Shown here one piece after another: positions 21,185-30,937 of a stretch of 39,290 nucleotides of DNA (its first letter is position 1; each line of letters opens with the position of its first letter). A program made the translations under genes and the position numbers. The DNA comes from Myxococcales bacterium (lineage in GTDB: Bacteria > Myxococcota_A > Polyangia > Polyangiales > Polyangiaceae): assembly GCA_947473045.1 (NCBI GenBank), contig CANJCO010000050.1, forward strand, positions 1-39,290. Reading direction: 5' to 3'. Below the pieces are notes generated by a model, which worked only from the letters and a program-made list of their open reading frames with translations, was not told the DNA's origin and made no database searches.

Positions 21185-21760
21185 ATGCTTGCAGCCACCT
21201 ATCCCGCGATCAATGTGCCCGGCGAGGGCCAGCTTTATGCCCGTCTCGTCACCACCGAGGGCACCCTCGTCGCCCGCCTCGAAGAAGAGCGGGCCCCCAA
21301 CACGGTGAAAAACTTTGTCGGGCTCGCCACGGGCACGCAGGAGTGGGCCGACCCCAAGACGGGCGAGACCAGGCGCGGCGTGCCCCTTTATGACGGCACC
21401 ATCTTTCATCGCGTCATCGCTGATTTCATGATTCAGGGCGGCGATCCGACTGGCACCGGTCGCGGAAACCCGGGCTACCGTTTCGCCGACGAGTTTCACC
21501 GCGACCTTCGCCACACCGGTCCCGGTGTGATGTCGATGGCCAACAGCGGCCCGAACAGCAACGGCTGCCAGTTCTTCATCTGCGAGAAGGCGACTCCCTG
21601 GCTTGACGGCAAGCACGCAGTCTTCGGCACGGTCGTCGTTGGCGCCGAGCTCGTGCCGAAGATCACCCGCGTCGCGAAGGCGCCCGGCGATCGCCCCACG
21701 ACCGACATCGTGCTCCAGCGCGTCGAAATCTTCCGCAGCGCCACCGTCCCCGAAGCCTGA
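21185..21760 (+). CDS. Cyclophilin-type peptidyl-prolyl cis-trans isomerase
   Basis: 191 residues covering a single cyclophilin domain without signal peptide, so probably cytoplasmic. Family motifs are present: APNTVKNFVGLA, FHRVIADFMIQGGDPTGTG with the catalytic Arg, GVMSMANSGPNSNGCQFFI and HAVFGTVVVG. The usual active-site Trp position reads WLDGKHAVFG. The enzyme speeds proline isomerisation during folding. The ATG is preceded by GGAG 8 nt upstream. It stands alone, divergent from the FHA gene across 236 bp that contain the direct repeat CGCGCCGGGCG, and it ends at a clear hairpin-T5 terminator. Confidence 0.93.
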   Translation: MLAATYPAINVPGEGQLYARLVTTEGTLVARLEEERAPNTVKNFVGLATGTQEWADPKTGETRRGVPLYDGTIFHRVIADFMIQGGDPTGTGRGNPGYRFADEFHRDLRHTGPGVMSMANSGPNSNGCQFFICEKATPWLDGKHAVFGTVVVGAELVPKITRVAKAPGDRPTTDIVLQRVEIFRSATVPEA

Positions 21761-21771
21761 CGTTTGCGCGG

Positions 21772-21793
21772 CGCCGCTCTTCGCGGCGTTTTT
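21772..21793 (+). terminator. Intrinsic terminator after the cyclophilin gene
   Basis: Perfect 6-bp GC stem CGCCGC/GCGGCG with loop TCTTC, followed directly by TTTTT. It lies 11 bp after the cyclophilin stop and separates it from the starch operon. Confidence 0.8.
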
Positions 21794-21809
21794 GCGCTTC
21801 GGCGCTGTC

Positions 21810-21829
21810 GTAACGCAGGCCTGAGTTAC
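21810..21829. promoter_or_regulatory. Candidate operator of the starch operon
   Basis: GTAACGCAGGCCTGAGTTAC is a 20-bp inverted repeat with one mismatched pair, centred on GGCC. It lies between the cyclophilin terminator and the operon start, about 78 bp upstream of the first codon. Its size fits a homodimeric regulator site, such as a LacI/GntR type, but no regulator gene is in the window and no convincing -35/-10 pair was seen. Confidence 0.5.
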
Positions 21830-21906
21830 TTTCTGCTGCCGGCCCTGCCGTTCGGTGCTATTTTGGGCCCTTCGTCGTTCGTCGCGGCGAGAGGGAGCGC
21901 TTGGCC

Positions 21907-24900
21907 GTGCGCAGTCAGATCTTTGTCTCGTGCGTCGTCGGTGCGTCGCTCGTGAGTGCCCTTGCGCAGGCCACCGCCGAGCCCCATGGCTCGACGCGGT
22001 ACCTGCCGAGCGCCAACGGGCGCGCATCGATCGCCTATGACGCGCAGGCTCACAAGCTCACCCAGCTGCTCGAGCACCCGTACAGGTTTCCCCAGCAGGG
22101 CGTGGAGACCCGCAATTTTGCCTACGACAGCTACCCCGGGCTTCGTGTCGGCTCGGCGAGCGCGTGGCTCGACGGTATCGCGCCCACGCGAACCGAATAT
22201 GTGCAGGGTACAGGCATCGTGCACGTCGCCCGCTCGTGGCAGGGGCTCTCGATCGACGAGTACGACTTCGCGCCGATGAGCCTCGGCGAAAACGCCGCGA
22301 TCACTGTGCTCACGGTCACGCGCCAGAGCGGGTCCGGCCCGATCAGCGCCTACCAGCTCTTCAACTTTCACCTGGGCGCGGGCGCTCCGGCGCCGTCGAG
22401 CGCAAGCGAGAGCATCGCCTTCGACGCCGGTCGCGACGCCTTTTACGAGTGGGGACCGAGCGGCGTGGCGATGGGCTACGGCGCCATCGGCGCCTCGTCG
22501 CACCACGCCTCGACGCCAAACAATCCCTACGGTTCGCTGCTCGCGGGGCAGGATCTGGCCGACAACGGGGGCACGGCAGGCGCGACCGGCGACGCCGTTG
22601 CGGGGCTCGAAGCCTCGCTCGGCGCCGTGGCGCAAAACGCGAGCGCGACCACCGGATGGTTCGTCGTGCTCGCCCCCGATGCGCAGGCGGCTCCTGCGGT
22701 CGACCGCGTGCGCGCGTGGATCGCGGGACGGAGCGCGGCGAAGCTCTTGAGCGACGAGGTCGCCCAATGGGCCGCGTGGCAGACGCCGGCTCCGGCGGGC
22801 GCGAGCGTGCTCGAAGCGCGAGCGTGGGCGCAGGCGCAGGCCACCTTGAAAATGGCGCAAGTCGCATCGACGGGCGCGAGCGACGGGCAAATCGTGGCCA
22901 GCCTCGCGCCGGGCAAGTGGAACATCGCGTGGGTGCGCGACATGGCCTACGCCACCGTCGCGCTGAGCCGTTCAGGGCACCTCGCCGAAGCGAAGCGCGC
23001 GATTGAATTTCAGCTCGGCGCAAAAGTGGGAGCCTACCAAACGTACGTAGGTAGTCCCTATCAAATTTCTGTGGTGCGATACTTCGGCGACGGTACCGAA
23101 GAGAGCGACGCAGACTCGAACGGTCCCAACATCGAGTTCGATGGATTTGGCCTTTTTTTATGGGAGCTTGAGGAATATGTGAAGGCGTCGGGCGACGCCG
23201 CGATGCTCGCCTCCGCGTGGCCCGCCGTCTCGAAGAAAATTGCAGACGTGCTGGTGAGCCTGCAGGAGCCGTCGGGGCTCATCGCGGCCGATTCGTCGAT
23301 CTGGGAGGTGCACTGGAAGGGCCAGCAGAAGCACTTTGCCTACACGACCATCACGGCCGCGCAGGGGCTGTGTTCGGCTTCGCGGCTGGCGCAAAAACAG
23401 GGCGACCCCGGGCTGCGCGCGGCCTACCTCGCCGCAGGGCAGAAGGCGCGCGATGCGCTCTTGACGCGCCTGCGCGCCCCCGACGGCACCCTCGCGCAGG
23501 CGACCGAGTCGCTCGCGGCAGGCCACGCGTGGCTCGACGCCGCGGCCGTCGAGGCGATCGGCTTCGGACTGGTCGACGCGAACAAACGCACCGCGCGCGC
23601 GACCCTCGCCGCGCTCGCCGCGGGGCTGGTGCCGCCGAGCGGCCGGGGGTTCATGCGCAACGACTCGGGCGGTTGGTACGACTCGCAGGAGTGGATTTTC
23701 GTCGACCTGCGCGCGGCCGCCGCGCTGGGTCTTGCGGGCCGCGCTTCTGACAGCGCGCCGCTGCTGGCGTGGAACGTCGCGCAGGCTGAGGACAACTTCG
23801 GCATTTTTTCTGAGCTGCACGACCGCGTCACCGCCGACTACGCGGGCGAAGCGCCGATGGTCGGCTTCGGGGCCGGCGCCTACGCGCTCGCGCTGCTCGA
23901 CCGCGGCCGCGCGCCTGCGCTCGGATGCGAGGCCTACGCGAGCGAGCCGGACGAACCCGTCGACGCGGGAGCGCCCGACGGATCCATCGCGCCCGGCGCC
24001 GACGCGGCTCCGACGGCTGACGGCGGTGGTGGGCGTCCTGGCGCTTCGGGCGCCTCGGACTCAGGATGCGCCGTGGCCGCGCCCGGCGCAGCGGGCGGGG
24101 AAGCGGCTGCGACGATGATCGCCCTTGTTTTGGGCGCGCTCGCGCTTCTCCGTCGTCGGAGCGCCGCAGCGCTCGCGGTCTTCGCTTCGTGGGCGCTTCT
24201 GGTCGGGTGCTCTGAGAGCCCGCCCGCGTCCGGCAGCGACGCCGAGGCTCCGGGCGACGGCGGCAGCGACGCGTCGTTCGACGCCGGCCCGCCGATCGAC
24301 GTCGACGCCGGCGCGTGCAAGACGACCTTTCGCTTCAAGCCGGCCGCCGGTCACCTGGCGAGCGCTGTCAGTGTCGCGGGCGAGTGGGACGCGTTCGCGG
24401 CTCCCGGAGCTGCGATGCAGGGGCCCGACGCCGACGGCGTGTTCACGGCCGAGGTGTCGCTGGCGCCCGGCTGGTATGCCTACAAGTTGATCGTCGACGG
24501 CGCGTGGCAGCTCGATCCGGGGGCCAGCACCCGAAAATATTCGGGCGGCATCGAAAATTCCGGCGTCGTCGTCAGCGACTGCTACGCGCCGACGCTCGCG
24601 CTGGCCTCCCAGTCCAGCGCTCGGCCGACCGCCGGCAACGGCCACTACGCGGCGAAGGTCGCCTTTCAACGCGGAGCGGCGCAAACGCAGATCGACCCCG
24701 CGAGCGTCAAGGTCACGCTTCGCTCCGACTTCGCCACGTCACCCGTTGCTGCCACCGTGGACGCGCAGTCCGGGTCGATCGCGTTCGATGCAGGCTCCCT
24801 GAAAGATGCAAAATACACGCTATTGATCGACGCGAGCGATCGCAAGGGCAGGGCCGCCAAGACGCTGCGCCTCGTGACCTGGATCGAGCCGGAGCGCTTC

Positions 24901-26436
24901 GACTGGCGTGACGCGACGCTCTACATGGCGATGACTGATCGCCTCAAAAATGGCGATCCCGGCAACGACGTGAGCAAGACCGCCGGCGTCGATGTTCGCG
25001 CCGATTTTCAAAACGGCGATCTGCAGGGCGTGCGGCAGGTGGTGGCCTCGGGCGCGCTCGACAAACTCGGCGTGCGGGCGCTGTGGCTGACGCCGTTTCA
25101 GTCGAACCCGAAGGGCGCGTTCGACTCCGATGATGGCGTGCACAAAGTGACCGGCTACCACGGCTACTGGCCCACCGAGGCGCGCACGGTCGAGCCCAGG
25201 ATCGGCGGCGAGGCGGCGTTGATCGCGCTCGTGAAAGAGGCGCACGCCCACGGCATTCGCGTGATCATGGATTTCGTCGTCAACCACGTGCACGCCGAGC
25301 ACGCCTACTTCAAGGCGCATCCGGAGTGGTTTCGCACCGGATGCCTCTGCGGCACGAACAACTGCGACTGGACCACCCACCGCCTCGACTGCCTCTTCGC
25401 GTCGTACATGCCCGACGTAAACTGGACGGTGCCGGAAGTGAGCACCCAGTATGGCGACGACGCGGTCTACTGGCTCGACCACTTCGACCTCGACGGCTTT
25501 CGCCTCGACGCGGTCAAGCACGTCGAAGACGCGGCGAGCATCAACCTCGCGTCGCGCATTCGCGGCGAGTTCGAGGCCAGCGGCACGCGCGTGTTTCTCA
25601 CCGGCGAGACGGCGATGGGCTGGTCCGACTGCGACTTGACATGCAACCAGTCGCAATACGACACCATCTCGCATTACATCGGGCCGGGCGGGCTCGACGG
25701 GCAGTTCGATTTTCCGCTGTATTACGCGGTTCCGATGCAGGTGTTCGCCTCGGACGCGCACGGCATGCTGCACGCGGACTACTGGACGCAGGCGAGCCAG
25801 TGGCAATACCCCGCCGGCGCGGTGATGTCGCCGTATGTGGGCAGTCAGGATACGCCGCGCTTTGTGACGCTCGCCGATTACCGGGGGCAGGACGGCGCCC
25901 ACTCGGGATCGGTGCCGGGCAACAAGTGGACGAATGTCGCCGCCGCGCCCACGACGGCCGAGCCCTACGAGCGGCAGCGCCTCGCGATGGCGTGGCTGCT
26001 CGGCGCTCCGGGCGCTCCGATGATTTACTACGGAGACGAATACGGCGAGTGGGGCGGAGCCGACCCGAACAATCGCGTGATGTGGCGCGGGGAGCAGTCG
26101 CTGTCGGCCCAGGAGTCGACGACGCTTTCGTTCGTGCGGAAGCTGGGCGCTGCGCGTCGCGAACTGGTCGCGCTTCGCCGCGGCGCCTACGGGCACGTCT
26201 ACGCGACTGAGGACGTGCTCGTGTTTGCGCGGCGCGCCTCCTCGGGCGAGGTCGCGCTGGTGGCGCTGTCGCGGGCCACGGCGCCGCGGACGTTTACAGC
26301 CCCGCTGTCCGTCTCCCTCGCCCTGCCCGATGGCCAGAAGCTCAGCGATCGCCTCGGCGGCCCGGACGTCATCGTGGCCGCCCAATCGATCACGCTTACC
26401 CTCGCGTCGCGGGGCGTGGCAGTACTGTCGCCGTGA
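21907..26436 (+). CDS. GH15 glucoamylase - MYXO-CTERM - lipoprotein signal - GH13 amylase in one frame
   Basis: About 1509 residues, uninterrupted. The start is GTG 21907 (AGGGAG 9 nt upstream); TTG 21901 is possible. A signal peptide ends near ATA-E. Residues about 25-670 are a GH15 glucoamylase (AWVRDMAY; candidate catalytic Glu467 in IWEVHW and Glu595 in QEWIFVD), which releases glucose from alpha-glucan ends. An Asp/Pro/Gly linker leads to a MYXO-CTERM-like tail: SGC with Cys721, a hydrophobic helix, and Arg749-751. With no stop, a second hydrophobic stretch ends in a lipobox LVGC (Cys768). Then come an acidic linker, a CBM48/E-set-like domain (RFKPAAGHLASAVSVAGEW), and a GH13 alpha-amylase domain (DFVVNH, Asp1201 in FRLDAVKH, Glu1234, Asp1315). 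Region IV reads SQD instead of NHD. The protein may be cut into two anchored enzymes. An ATG at residue 737 could also start the second half separately. Confidence 0.85.
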   Translation: MRSQIFVSCVVGASLVSALAQATAEPHGSTRYLPSANGRASIAYDAQAHKLTQLLEHPYRFPQQGVETRNFAYDSYPGLRVGSASAWLDGIAPTRTEYVQGTGIVHVARSWQGLSIDEYDFAPMSLGENAAITVLTVTRQSGSGPISAYQLFNFHLGAGAPAPSSASESIAFDAGRDAFYEWGPSGVAMGYGAIGASSHHASTPNNPYGSLLAGQDLADNGGTAGATGDAVAGLEASLGAVAQNASATTGWFVVLAPDAQAAPAVDRVRAWIAGRSAAKLLSDEVAQWAAWQTPAPAGASVLEARAWAQAQATLKMAQVASTGASDGQIVASLAPGKWNIAWVRDMAYATVALSRSGHLAEAKRAIEFQLGAKVGAYQTYVGSPYQISVVRYFGDGTEESDADSNGPNIEFDGFGLFLWELEEYVKASGDAAMLASAWPAVSKKIADVLVSLQEPSGLIAADSSIWEVHWKGQQKHFAYTTITAAQGLCSASRLAQKQGDPGLRAAYLAAGQKARDALLTRLRAPDGTLAQATESLAAGHAWLDAAAVEAIGFGLVDANKRTARATLAALAAGLVPPSGRGFMRNDSGGWYDSQEWIFVDLRAAAALGLAGRASDSAPLLAWNVAQAEDNFGIFSELHDRVTADYAGEAPMVGFGAGAYALALLDRGRAPALGCEAYASEPDEPVDAGAPDGSIAPGADAAPTADGGGGRPGASGASDSGCAVAAPGAAGGEAAATMIALVLGALALLRRRSAAALAVFASWALLVGCSESPPASGSDAEAPGDGGSDASFDAGPPIDVDAGACKTTFRFKPAAGHLASAVSVAGEWDAFAAPGAAMQGPDADGVFTAEVSLAPGWYAYKLIVDGAWQLDPGASTRKYSGGIENSGVVVSDCYAPTLALASQSSARPTAGNGHYAAKVAFQRGAAQTQIDPASVKVTLRSDFATSPVAATVDAQSGSIAFDAGSLKDAKYTLLIDASDRKGRAAKTLRLVTWIEPERFDWRDATLYMAMTDRLKNGDPGNDVSKTAGVDVRADFQNGDLQGVRQVVASGALDKLGVRALWLTPFQSNPKGAFDSDDGVHKVTGYHGYWPTEARTVEPRIGGEAALIALVKEAHAHGIRVIMDFVVNHVHAEHAYFKAHPEWFRTGCLCGTNNCDWTTHRLDCLFASYMPDVNWTVPEVSTQYGDDAVYWLDHFDLDGFRLDAVKHVEDAASINLASRIRGEFEASGTRVFLTGETAMGWSDCDLTCNQSQYDTISHYIGPGGLDGQFDFPLYYAVPMQVFASDAHGMLHADYWTQASQWQYPAGAVMSPYVGSQDTPRFVTLADYRGQDGAHSGSVPGNKWTNVAAAPTTAEPYERQRLAMAWLLGAPGAPMIYYGDEYGEWGGADPNNRVMWRGEQSLSAQESTTLSFVRKLGAARRELVALRRGAYGHVYATEDVLVFARRASSGEVALVALSRATAPRTFTAPLSVSLALPDGQKLSDRLGGPDVIVAAQSITLTLASRGVAVLSP

Positions 26437-27914
26437 GTTTTTCGATGATGCCCACTTCCGTTGCCGTGCGCGGCGCGCTCGCGTTCGCCCTGTTTTCGGC
26501 CCGCGCGCTCGCCGACGACGCGCCTGCCGCTCCCGCCGAAGCGTTGTCAGCTCCGGCAGCCGCCGCTCCTTCGCCCCCGGCAGCGCCCGCCGTTGCGCCG
26601 TCGGTCGCAGACGCGGGGCGCTTCGAGTTCGGCTCCTACGGCCGCGTGCGCATCGCGAGCGACCTGCGTGGCGGCGTGGGTCGCACCGTGAACGTGGTGG
26701 CGAACGGAACGCGCATCGACGAAGACAGCTACGCGGAGCTCGAGCTGCGCCGCGAAGACACCTGGAAGGGCGGTGCGACCACGAAGGTCGTCGCCACCCT
26801 CGCCCTGTTTTCGCCGTTTTTTCACTTCAGCGGCCGCCCCGAACAGCAGCTCGCAGTGCGCAACCTGTTCGTTCAGGGCAGCGTCGGGAGCCTCACGCTG
26901 TGGGGCGGATCGCGCATGTACCGCGGCGATGACATCTACCTGCTCAACTGGTGGCCGCTCGACAACCAGAACACCCTCGGGGGCGGCGCCGCCTACGCGA
27001 TCGGGCCCGACACTACGCTCGCAGCCCATGTGGGAATGCAGCGCCTCGACAACGCCTACCAGTCGCAGCAGGTGCTCGCCGTGGCGCCGTTCGGCAGCGG
27101 CACCGTCGCCGTGCAGCAGCTCGACCGACCCCGCACGATCGAGAGCGTGAAGTTCACGCAGCTGGTTCGCAACGGGCGCCTGTTCCAAGATCCGAAGGCG
27201 GGCTTCAAGTGGGTGCTCTACGCCGAGGCGCACCAGATTTCCGCGGGCGTCGCGCGCGATGCGCTCACCGCGCAAGATCGCGGGCTGCCGCAGGATTACG
27301 GCTTTTTGGCGGGCGCGCAGCTCGGTATCTGGTCGGGCGAGCGCGACACGCACCTCAACTTGTTTCTGCGTCACGCCCGAGGGCTGGCCGCCTACGATCC
27401 GCTGGCCGCGCCGCAGACGTTCGCCAACGACAAGTCCACGATGGGCACCACCGAGAGCCTTATTGCCCTCGGCGGTAACTACGAAAAAGAGGCGTTCGGA
27501 ATCGTTGGCGGGGCCTACCTTCGCGCGTTCCGCGACGGCGACCCCTCAGCGACCACCACCCAGAAATTCGACGAAGGCACCGTCGTGCTTCGCCCTCAGG
27601 TCTACCTGGGACAACACTGGGGCGTAGGCGGAGAAGCCAGCTTTCAGGCGCGGCGGCTCGCCGTCCCCGATCCCGAACAAACCTCCCAGCCGCTTACTGC
27701 GTCGCTGTGGCGGTTCGGCGTCATGCCCTATTTCTCGCCGGCGGGCCGAGGCACCTTCAAGCGCCCCCAGCTGCGGCTCGTGTACGTCGCCACCCTGCGA
27801 AGCCGCGGCGCGCAGGAGCTCTACGCCGCGCAGGACGTCTTCGCTCAGCGCAGCGTCGAGCACTTCCTCGGCCTGAACGTGGAGTGGTGGTTCAACTCGT
27901 CTTCGCAGCCGTGA
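26433..27914 (+). CDS. LamB-like maltoporin / carbohydrate porin
   Basis: 493 residues from a GTG that overlaps the previous TGA (GTGA); ATGs at 26445 and 26448 are alternatives. A signal peptide ends at ALA-DD, followed by a Pro/Ala linker. The rest alternates like an outer-membrane beta barrel (FEFGSYGRVRIASDL; LTLWGGSRMYRGDDIYLLNW; AGAQLGIWSGERDTHLNLF). It closes with VEHFLGLNVEWWF, the terminal strand typical of LamB-type porins. It probably lets maltodextrins made by the flanking amylases cross the outer membrane. The context, between two GH13 enzymes, is the best functional evidence. Confidence 0.85.
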   Translation: MSFSMMPTSVAVRGALAFALFSARALADDAPAAPAEALSAPAAAAPSPPAAPAVAPSVADAGRFEFGSYGRVRIASDLRGGVGRTVNVVANGTRIDEDSYAELELRREDTWKGGATTKVVATLALFSPFFHFSGRPEQQLAVRNLFVQGSVGSLTLWGGSRMYRGDDIYLLNWWPLDNQNTLGGGAAYAIGPDTTLAAHVGMQRLDNAYQSQQVLAVAPFGSGTVAVQQLDRPRTIESVKFTQLVRNGRLFQDPKAGFKWVLYAEAHQISAGVARDALTAQDRGLPQDYGFLAGAQLGIWSGERDTHLNLFLRHARGLAAYDPLAAPQTFANDKSTMGTTESLIALGGNYEKEAFGIVGGAYLRAFRDGDPSATTTQKFDEGTVVLRPQVYLGQHWGVGGEASFQARRLAVPDPEQTSQPLTASLWRFGVMPYFSPAGRGTFKRPQLRLVYVATLRSRGAQELYAAQDVFAQRSVEHFLGLNVEWWFNSSSQP

Positions 27915-27925
27915 GGAAAGCCAGT

Positions 27926-29761
27926 ATGCGCGTTTTAGTTCTCGGCCTCGGAGCCATCGCAGCCCTCGCCGTGGTCGCCACCCACACAACAGCCTGCGTG
28001 CAGATCCCCGACCAGGGCAAGCAGCCGGCGCTCGCCACGCACGTCGTCGACTGGCGCGATGAGGTGATCTACCAGGTGCTGATCGATCGCTTCGCCGACG
28101 GAAACATCAACAACAACTTCGGCGTGAGGCCCGGTGCGCTCGCGCGGCACCAGGGCGGCGACTGGCGCGGGCTCGAAGATCACCTCGGCTACCTGCAGGA
28201 AATGGGAGTCACCACATTGTGGATATCTCCCATTGTGAAGAACGTGGAGACCGACGCCGACGTCGACTCGTATCACGGCTATTGGGCGCAAGATCTCACC
28301 CAGCTCAATCCGCATTTTGGCGACCTCGCCTCGCTGCGGTCGCTGGTGGCGAGCGCCCACGATCGCAACATGAAGGTCGTGCTCGACATTGTGACCAATC
28401 ACATGGGGCAGGCCTTTTATTATGACATGAACCTAAACGGTCACCCCGACATCTACATCGGCGGCACCGGCACGACCTCGCCCCTCACGCGGGTCAGCGA
28501 GTACGATCCCGACTGGGACGCGCGCGGGGTTCAGGCGCAGACTTCGCTCGGCCTCGATGGCCGGGCCCCGATGATTTTCATCGACGATCCCGCGATCAAC
28601 CGCGTGCCGCCCGGCTGCATCGACACCCTGTCGCCCGACGGGCGGTGCATCCTCGGTTCGCCGCGCGGGTACCACGGCTTTGGCCGCATTTTGAACTACG
28701 ACGACGACAAGCAGCGCATGCTCGGCGACTTTCCGGGGGGCCTGAAAGACGTAGCGACTGAGCTCGACGAAGTGCGACAGGTCATGATCGACAGCTACGC
28801 GCGCTGGGTCGAGCTGCTCGACCTCGACGGCTTTCGCATCGACACCGTCAAGCACGTGGAGCACGAGTTTTGGCAGGTGTTCTCGAAGGCGGTCAGGCAG
28901 CGCCTCGCCGCGCAGGGCAAGGCGAACTTTCTCATGTTCGGCGAGGCCTTCGACGGAAACGACGAGCTGCTCGGCAGCTTCACGCGCCCGGGCGAGCTCG
29001 ACAGCGTCTTTTATTTCTCACAGCACTTTCAGGTGTTTCGCGACGTGTTCCAAAACGCCCACGACGTGAAGGCGCAAAAGGGAACCTCCCAGATCAAGAC
29101 CCTTTGGGAGTCGCGCGCGAAGAGCTATGGCTCCGCGCCGCAGGAAAACGGGATTGGCGTCGCACCCACAAAAGCGCTCGTGAACTTTCTCGACAACCAC
29201 GACGTGAGTCGTTTTCTGTTCGAGGCGCAGGGCGACGTGCCGGCGCTGCGAAACGCGCTCACCCTGCTGCTGACCGAGGACGGAATTCCGTGCGTCTATT
29301 ACGGCACCGAGCAGGACTTCGCCGGCGGAAATGACCCGGCCAACCGCGAAGTGCTGTGGACCACCGGCTTTGCGACGACCGGCGACACGTTTCGGCATGT
29401 CTCGAAGCTCGCGGGGCTGCGGCGCGATTATGTGGCGCTGCGGCGCGGTGACACGAAGGTGGTCTATGCGACCGACCATGTTGGCGACGAGTCCGACGCG
29501 GGCGTCTTTGCCTTCGAACGCGCGGCCGGCGACGCGGGCGCCAGCTATGCCCTGGTCGTGATGAACACCAACGCGCGGCATAAGAGCACCACCTCGGACG
29601 CGTCAGGAATGAAGGTGAACGCGGCCGCGGGCAGCTCGCTCGTTGACGTGCTGGACCCTGCCCGGACTGCCTATGCCGTGGGCAGCGACCAGACCCTTCG
29701 CCTCACGCTCGGCGCGCAGTCTGCGATGGTGCTGGTGCCCAGCGGGCAGGTCGTTCACTGA
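27926..29761 (+). CDS. GH13 alpha-amylase lipoprotein
   Basis: 611 residues. The N-terminus [18 protein letters not shown] ends in a lipobox (TTAC), so it is lipid-anchored. The ATG has AGGAAAG 5 nt upstream and lies 11 bp after the porin stop. All four GH13 regions are canonical: [14 protein letters not shown] with nucleophile Asp306, GEAF with acid/base Glu340, and DNHD with Asp426. Insertions after region I carry a possible metal-binding loop. It cleaves internal alpha-1,4 bonds or maltodextrins; the exact specificity (alpha-amylase, neopullulanase or cyclomaltodextrinase) cannot be read. With the porin and the GH15/GH13 protein it forms a starch-use unit. Confidence 0.92.
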
Positions 29762-29788
29762 CCCGCCCTCCCCCCGCGAACGGGTCGC

Positions 29789-30937
29789 TCAGTTGGCTGG
29801 TTTGACCGCCACGTGCGGAACCTTCTTCGCTTCCGCGGCGGCCGCGCCCGCCTTCGCGGCGCTCTCGGCTTTTGCTTCGGCCGCCTTGGCGTCCGCCTTG
29901 CCCTCGGCCTGCGTTGCGCCGCGCTTGATGCCGTGCTTCTGCAGCACGAGGCCTTCGAGCTTGTCCATCAGCTCGGGGTGCTGCTCGAGGTAAGTCTTGG
30001 CGTTTTCGCGGCCCTGACCGATGCGCTCGCCGTTGTACGAAAACCACGCGCCGCTCTTTTCGACGATGTTGAGCTCGCTGGCGAGATCGATGAGGTCGCC
30101 TGAGCGCGAGATGCCCTGACCGTAGAGAATGTCGAACTCGACCTCGCGGAACGGGGGCGCCATCTTGTTTTTGACGACCTTGACGCGCGTGCGGTTGCCG
30201 ATGACCACGGGGTCTTTGGTGCCCGACGCGGCGGCCTCTTTGATCGCGCCAATGCGCCGGATATCGAGCCGCACGCTGGCGTAGAACTTGAGTGCGTTGC
30301 CTCCCGTGGTGGTCTCGGGTGAGCCGAACATCACGCCAATTTTCATGCGGATTTGGTTGATGAACACGAGCAGGCAGTTGCTGCGCGCGACCGTGGAGGT
30401 CAGCTTGCGAAGCGCCTGACTCATGAGGCGCGCCTGGACGCCGACGTGGCTGTCGCCCATGTCGCCCTCGATTTCGGCCTTGGGAACGAGCGCCGCGACC
30501 GAGTCGACGACGACGATATCGACCGCGTTGCTGCGCACGAGCATGTCGGCGATTTCGAGCGCCTGCTCGCCGTAGTCGGGCTGCGACACGAGCAGCTCGT
30601 CGGTGTTTACGCCGAGCTTGCGGGCGTAGGCGGGATCGAGCGCGTGCTCTGCGTCGATGAAGGCCGCGACGCCGCCGGCGCGCTGTGCGCTCGCGATGGC
30701 GTGCAGCGTGAGGGTGGTCTTGCCGCTCGACTCAGGGCCGTAGATCTCGATGATGCGCCCCTTGGGGTAGCCGCCGATGCCGAGCGCGAGATCGAGCCCG
30801 ATGCTGCCCGTTTGGATGACCCCGACGTCGGCGTTGAGGACGCCGTCTTTCAGGCGCATGATGGAGCCCTTGCCGTACTCTTTCTCGATGGAGGCGAGGG
30901 CGAGCTCGATGGCTTTCTGGCGGTTCTTGTCTTCCAT
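29789..30937 (-). CDS. recA: RecA recombinase
   Basis: 382 residues. Walker A GPESSGKT is at 67-74, and the Walker B region reads [20 protein letters not shown]. Loop L2 is [20 protein letters not shown]. RecA forms filaments on single-stranded DNA for recombination and triggers LexA self-cleavage. The C-terminus is a long Ala/Lys/Glu-rich tail ([17 protein letters not shown]) rather than the short acidic tail of E. coli. The ATG is preceded by GAGGAG 7 nt upstream. Its promoter and LexA-like site lie at 30981-31010. It converges on the GH13 gene, with a weak GACCCG/CGGGTC hairpin (29760-29786) between. Confidence 0.98.

Follow-up and report, generated by a model that had tools for sequence, protein, structure and literature searches.

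The fused frame and its junction

The DNA analysed here, referred to as the window, is a stretch of 39,290 nucleotides from a member of the Myxococcales (assembly GCA_947473045.1, contig CANJCO010000050.1, positions 1 to 39,290 of the forward strand). It contains a single long open frame in which two glycoside hydrolase regions, one of family GH15 and one of family GH13, are joined by a hairpin-like segment built of two protein-sorting signals placed back to back. The features of this gene are as follows.

21901-26436, plus strand: GH15-hairpin-GH13 open frame of 1511 amino acids (aa); start at TTG 21901 or, equally possible, at GTG 21907
21907-21978, plus strand: probable N-terminal Sec signal peptide, (V)RSQIFVSCVVGASLVSALAQATA then EPHG, read directly from the sequence
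22837-23463, plus strand: match to the GH15 catalytic domain PF00723 (whole GH15 region about 21979-23920)
24058-24159, plus strand: MYXO-CTERM-like sorting tail, made of SGC (Cys 24067-24069), a hydrophobic segment and RRR; matches positions 1-33 of 34 of TIGR03901
24112-24150, plus strand: first hydrophobic segment, TMIALVLGALALL, 13 residues, hydropathy 2.61
24115-24117, plus strand: in-frame ATG within the first of the two hydrophobic segments; no other ATG was found from which the GH13 half could be started on its own
24151-24165, plus strand: Arg-rich turn RRRSA, net charge +3, which ends the first signal and begins the second
24166-24204, plus strand: second hydrophobic segment, AALAVFASWALLV, 13 residues, hydropathy 2.30
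24199-24210, plus strand: lipobox LVGC, Cys at 24208-24210
24358-24576, plus strand: CBM48-like module (AMPK1_CBM), PF16561, E 1.2e-8
24931-26055, plus strand: GH13 catalytic domain, PF00128, E 3.4e-36

The frame is free of stop codons from 21814 up to its stop at 26434-26436, and none lies at the GH15/GH13 junction. From the N terminus it runs through the signal peptide, the GH15 region, a linker rich in Asp and Gly, the MYXO-CTERM-like tail, the Arg turn, the second hydrophobic segment, the lipobox, the CBM48-like module and the GH13 domain. The PF00723 match has an E value of 3.2e-7 and 30.1 bits, weak from a single sequence and above the gathering cut-off of 22. A search of the PDB with the single GH15-half sequence gave no match, and a profile of nine GH15 members led to dextran dextrinase 9ju0 (E 4.3e-10), presumably a GH15 enzyme, with SSIWE aligned to YSIWE of 9ju0. 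The GH13 domain scored 125.9 bits against PF00128 (gathering cut-off 22), and alignment to alpha-amylase 4e2o showed that the Asp, Glu and Asp positions of the triad, which we take to be the catalytic residues, are kept. The last GH13 motif reads GSQD, compared with DNHD in 4e2o, Gln replacing His before the last Asp.

The junction reads SGC-AVAAPGAAGGEAAA-TMIALVLGALALL-RRRSA-AALAVFASWALLV-GC, and its two Cys residues are 47 residues apart. The tripartite order of a MYXO-CTERM signal (Cys motif, hydrophobic helix, Arg cluster) is present as SGC, TMIALVLGALALL and RRR. The tail scored 17.6 bits against TIGR03901 in the protein scan and 15.5 in the genome scan, missing the curated cut-off of 20, and it is not at the C terminus, as 758 residues follow the Arg cluster. 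By pattern, a lipoprotein signal is also complete, with RRRSA as the n-region, AALAVFASWALLV as the h-region and LVGC as the lipobox; it lies inside the 1511-aa frame and not at the protein N terminus. This one-frame anatomy had been described in an earlier reading made from the letters of the DNA alone (the sequence-only reading). The residues named there were located exactly, counting from GTG 21907: Cys721 is at 24067-24069, the ATG of residue 737 at 24115, Arg749-751 at 24151-24159 and Cys768 at 24208-24210.

The codon-position G+C holds a coding pattern throughout, with a GC3 of 0.80 before the junction and 0.86 after it. Within 24001-24480 one of the other two frames has a stop at 24116 only and the other at 24018 and 24213 only, and no start codon in the coding frame (frame 0) was found between the Arg codons and 75 bases downstream. 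Because stops in the other frames are so few and such a start codon is lacking, a single insertion or deletion would not yield two tidy genes. A scan of 21700-30000 for consensus promoters (sigma-70-type) and terminators listed none in 24000-24350.

Fused and split pairs in relatives

Of 183 genomes searched in the order, 33 gave a match to the GH15 half at E <=1e-90, and of 39 close relatives 19 did so at E 0.001, own genome counted in both. A pair was counted when a GH13 lay on the same strand within about 0.75 kb of the GH15, and loci L029 and L056, which gave identical results, were counted once. Left out of the tally were L035 (1.6 kb between matches), L037 (7 kb), L087, G001 and other contig-cut loci, as well as loci without a same-strand GH13 beside the GH15 within the stretch fetched. 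The GH15/GH13 junction of L087 (G060:C76) is hidden by a run of N, the only reason why this locus appears as a single open frame; in G001, a genome of the same genus as the window, the contig ends inside the GH15 and the junction is unreadable.

The results showed that 18 pairs were readable on one contig, three of them fused and 15 separate. The fused pairs are those of the window, L042 (G030, family f7) and L043 (G038, family f8), from three different families. In all 15 separate pairs the GH15 gene ends in a MYXO-CTERM-like tail followed by a stop codon, a lipoprotein-type GH13 start was read in six, and in L040 the two genes overlap by four bases (GTGA). The pair of G150, read on the contig that carries the GH13 side, is split as well (tail GGGCGC...LRRRSR, stop, then MNRVLATASAATVVLALGACG). 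This pair brings the readable adjacent pairs to 19, of which three are fused and 16 are two genes. The comparison with related genomes that the sequence-only reading had proposed thus showed that homologues are not always two genes. In another locus, L080 (G054:C97, 9663-11752), the GH13 match falls into two adjoining pieces, perhaps owing to a frameshift or stop in the gene or the assembly.

In trees of the GH15 (40 rows) and of the GH13 (21 rows), the fused state needs three changes, and the well-supported branches force three. A single origin of the fusion is therefore unsupported; one gain and two losses is a possible explanation of the pattern.

A sequencing or assembly error that joined neighbouring genes would also give a fused frame, and the state of the assemblies leaves some room for it: the window genome is a draft of 138 contigs, G030 and G038, which carry the other two fusions, are also drafts, and the nearest readable relative, G150, is split. 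However, the frame structure at the junction is not what one insertion or deletion between two tidy genes would leave, three fused homologues come from three families, and the same architecture is found in assemblies of 1-5 contigs, among them G036, G155, G181, G105, G188, G309 and G254. An error of this kind is very unlikely.

The hairpin in other proteins

A scan of the window's own genome for MYXO-CTERM tails gave 33 matches at E <=10, and 30 were fetched. Among the 25 best (>=14.5 bits), 23 tails end 0-15 residues before a stop codon and two are internal, those of the window and L100; the five weakest fetched matches (<=12.6 bits, partial), three of which lie inside frames, and the three unfetched ones were uncounted. 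L100 (G000:C25:33759-33866) encodes a protein of 288 aa in which a short MYXO-CTERM peptide is followed by RRRSRR, a type I signal (AHA/AE) and a DUF3575 domain. L135 is listed together with L100 for this same internal MYXO-CTERM and type I signal peptide, by which a short peptide is joined to a DUF3575 protein.

Profiles of the hairpin were then run, one made from four hairpins over the 183 genomes of the order and one from ten hairpins over 377 genomes of the phylum. The 40 places read from both searches comprised 29 internal hairpins and 11 ordinary tails. In the order search 20 places were fetched, of which 10 were internal and 10 were ordinary tails, among the matches listed; in the phylum search, where matches with a stop inside were unfetched, 19 of the 20 places read were internal and one was an ordinary tail. 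Counting the four starting cases, at least 33 proteins carry an in-frame hairpin of MYXO-CTERM, Arg-rich loop and second signal, and their N-terminal halves fall into 13 clusters (BLAST at 1e-6). Because these proteins were found by hairpin profiles and chosen as long stop-free matches, they show the existence of the arrangement and not its prevalence. Near-duplicates are present among them, L173 and L174 being about 99% alike and L237 and L240 94% alike in the C-half.

The proteins joined in this way are diverse. In one combination, a protein that resembles zinc phospholipase C below threshold precedes a lipoprotein of about 390-430 aa; other hairpin proteins carry domains of the GDSL lipase, subtilase, amidase or Kelch/TPR type. 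All 13 loops examined for charge are net positive, and when TIGR03901 was run over ten hairpins, six passed the cut-off of 20 (21.5-29.7 bits) and four failed. In L230 (G347:C398:15873 and 23060) two different MYXO-CTERM/lipobox polyprotein genes adjoin, one of them with a subtilase as N-half and a C-half that contains Lamin-tail domains. The N-half of L168 (G019:C322) belongs to the family of L169-L171 and its C-half has no BLAST match to theirs, a possible exchange of partners at the junction.

One cluster, F9, has both halves homologous in ten proteins from seven families. Its C-half was found in 136 of the 377 phylum genomes at 1e-25, and among the best 79 rows (E <=1.2e-91, each from a different genome) the open frame is >=1230 aa long in 71. 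Junctions were read in 28 members, namely the ten cluster proteins and 18 chosen for long frames. The result showed that all 28 junctions have the order Cys, helix, Arg-rich loop, helix, Cys. Both Cys columns are conserved in 28 of 28, a level found in 21 of the 1263 well-filled columns of the alignment, while the mean share of the commonest residue is 0.41 near the hairpin vs 0.44 overall. The genome that holds the window encodes F9 as two genes, divided exactly at the hairpin position (L274, G000:C25:16500-22500). The N-half there, with 39% identity to L260, has its MYXO-CTERM at the C terminus; the C-half (44% identity) has an ATG that overlaps the N-half stop by one base (TGATG) and begins with MNARTCLVGALALTLAGVANPGC, which is of the lipoprotein type. 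As both GH15/GH13 and F9 occur in both forms, fused and split states interchange at the hairpin point in two unrelated families.

The F9 data bear on two explanations other than processing at both sites. In one, the chain is fused and stays uncut or is cut once, the hairpin acting as an anchor or tether of two helices that keeps the enzymes joined. The frame is continuous, the computed evidence shows no cutting, and none of the three fused GH15/GH13 proteins reaches the MYXO-CTERM cut-off, as such a tether would allow. A plain anchor needs no pair of cysteines, however, yet both are kept throughout the F9 members while the hairpin around them drifts, and the halves also exist as separate genes, each bearing its own signal. 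We regard a tether as unlikely, though it is the strongest of the alternatives. In the other, neighbouring genes fused neutrally and the fusion was tolerated without benefit. This agrees with the genes being adjacent or overlapping in many relatives and with the scatter of the fused state on the trees; it sits poorly with a fused F9 family that is phylum-wide with both cysteines invariant, and is improbable.

The sequence-only reading had also raised internal initiation at ATG 24115, by which one piece of DNA would serve as both sorting tail and signal peptide and the GH13 would be made separately. Such a start (or TTG 24130) is possible in the window: the ATG is in frame, the 13 bases examined for a Shine-Dalgarno (SD)-like motif hold none, and a purine-rich GGGGAAG stretch lies farther upstream. 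The product would begin with 12 mostly hydrophobic residues ahead of the Arg cluster. Start codons were counted in 51 hairpins, those of the 33 proteins and of the 18 F9 members (the processing site of L171 was set six residues early in this count; its lack of starts was also seen separately). The result showed that 38 of 51 have an ATG, GTG or TTG at a workable distance, whereas 13 have none that would give a signal of 14-35 residues, the fused L042 and L100 of the same genome among them. A start with an SD-like motif occurs in only 2 of 51, a count that does not cover leaderless or SD-less starts. Internal initiation is thus ruled out as a general mechanism by the 13 hairpins without a usable start. 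As the source of the window's GH13 it is doubtful, slightly less so than neutral fusion.

Proposed processing and its meaning

The window's genome encodes a myxosortase. The MrtC equivalog model NF040594 matched at 273.7 bits (cut-off 195) at L136:4583-5293 on the minus strand; the protein scored 112 bits against the MrtX model, below its cut-off of 180, and shows EExxxR and HxxxN motifs. MrtC, the two cysteines invariant in 28 F9 members, the interchange of fused and split forms at the hairpin and the recurrence of the hairpin in 13 clusters of unlike proteins all favour the two-signal polyprotein that the sequence-only reading had put forward.

We propose the following course of events. The GH15 enzyme would be exported by its N-terminal signal peptide until the MYXO-CTERM helix halts transfer with the Arg cluster in the cytoplasm. 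This cluster would double as the n-region of the lipoprotein signal peptide, the helix of which would re-enter the membrane and export the GH13. Two cuts may then follow, one at Cys 24067 by the myxosortase, here MrtC, and one before Cys 24208 by signal peptidase II. These cuts would free two separately lipid-anchored starch enzymes at a one-to-one ratio; the hairpin, about 46 residues long, would stay behind in the inner membrane. The split relatives make the same two proteins from adjacent or overlapping genes. The hairpin topology, the lipidation, both cuts and the surface location of the enzymes are what we infer from the arrangement of the signals. We put the probability at roughly 0.6 that one gene gives an exported polyprotein whose double-signal hairpin is cut by a myxosortase and signal peptidase II into two anchored enzymes. 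For the related enzyme MrtX, cleavage of the MYXO-CTERM of TraA has been reported, dependent on conserved cysteines and reproduced in E. coli, and lipidation before cleavage has been proposed (Guo, Haft and Wall 2025, PMC11980579).

Several observations weigh against this processing. An uncut, membrane-tethered two-enzyme protein would have identical DNA, and ATG 24115 makes internal initiation possible in the window. The window tail has one Cys vs the generic GCGC motif described in PMC11980579, and four hairpins fall below the TIGR03901 cut-off: the window (17.6 bits), L042 and L043 (17.2 and 14.1 bits) and L172 (14.3 bits). The figures for invariant cysteines come from F9 and not from the GH15/GH13 family, which has three fused members. 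Within F9 itself, 8 of the best 79 rows lie in frames of 391-967 aa, some perhaps contig-cut, and a number of the weaker rows, many of them from family f26, have frames of 639-782 aa. Finally, because the nearest readable relative, G150 (63% identity in the GH15), is split, the fusion in the window may be recent.

Immediately downstream of the fused gene lie two further genes.

26433-27914, plus strand: porin-like gene with weak similarity to LamB; its GTG start overlaps the stop of the fused gene by four bases (GTGA, 26433-26436)
27926-29761, plus strand: second, separate GH13 gene, a third enzyme, starting at ATG 27926 with its own lipoprotein-type signal

L036 and L038 show the same gene order (GH15, GH13, porin, second GH13), and because of this recurrence the locus is read as a starch-utilisation locus. 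The porin-like gene, with its weak similarity to maltoporin LamB, may represent a distinct maltodextrin porin family.

The junction can be set beside several known systems. Bacterial lipoprotein export uses Lgt and signal peptidase II, and the window shares with it the Arg-rich n-region, the hydrophobic stretch and the LVGC lipobox; it differs in the internal start of the signal and in an n-region that is also part of another sorting signal. Like substrates of MYXO-CTERM/myxosortase sorting (TIGR03901; MrtX, MrtC), it has the Cys motif, helix and Arg cluster together with a genome-encoded MrtC; unlike them, it has an internal tail that scores below the curated cut-off. The cytochrome b/c1 polyprotein fbcH of Bradyrhizobium is one translation product with an internal cleaved signal sequence; it consists of respiratory proteins and is not known to have a sorting tail. 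An archaeosortase substrate, going by the title of work by Abdul Halim et al. from 2017, reportedly has a processed non-terminal tripartite signal, which is alike in not being C-terminal and differs in being archaeal and handled by another enzyme. Two NCBIfam models, midcut-by-XrtH (NF033207) and lipo-invert (NF058595), concern, by name, mid-protein cutting and unusual anchoring signals. The best hairpin match to them, that of L172, scored 18.2 (cut-off 45) and 28.8 (cut-off 37), respectively, and the window segment gave no match to either at E <=1. Membership in these families was thus rejected, being below cut-off where tested; weak lipo-invert matches in any case mean little, because the model also matches weakly in 14 of 14 control genomes.

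The closest precedent is MXAN_5598, named as one of the rare open frames with an internal MYXO-CTERM and possibly two fused genes, whose N-terminal part is proposed to be processed and anchored (Guo, Haft and Wall 2025, PMC11980579). As there, the MYXO-CTERM-like motif of the window sits mid-protein. The second part of MXAN_5598, however, is an outer-membrane beta-barrel with OmpA domains, unlike the GH13 of the window, and the available part of that paper, in its account of internal MYXO-CTERM signals, mentions neither an Arg cluster shared with a second signal peptide or a lipobox, nor a pair of enzymes, nor a family spread over the phylum. A search of the literature, mostly outside subscription papers and supplements, found no account in which one Arg loop links a MYXO-CTERM tail to a signal peptide or lipobox, and none of a conserved family built in this way; the only related work was the myxosortase paper. 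Since the rare internal MYXO-CTERM is already published there, the double-signal hairpin with a shared Arg loop is a variant on it.

C-terminal sorting tags and lipoprotein signals are usually taken as marks of protein ends; here they stand back to back in the middle of a protein, and a single long chain is probably the source of two surface proteins in this bacterium. Because MrtX cuts MYXO-CTERM in E. coli (PMC11980579), the polyprotein idea is directly testable in a laboratory strain, and the finding bears on the question of which enzyme lipidates the MYXO-CTERM Cys. The chances are about even that Myxococcota have a standing class of secreted polyproteins, in which one hairpin with back-to-back lipid-linked signals is cut by a myxosortase and signal peptidase II into two surface proteins at a fixed ratio, fused and split versions interchange and one such protein has been kept phylum-wide. 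If both cuts are made, bacteria would be using signal-dependent polyproteins for the fixed-ratio co-production of surface proteins, and some large annotated surface proteins of Myxococcota would really be two proteins.

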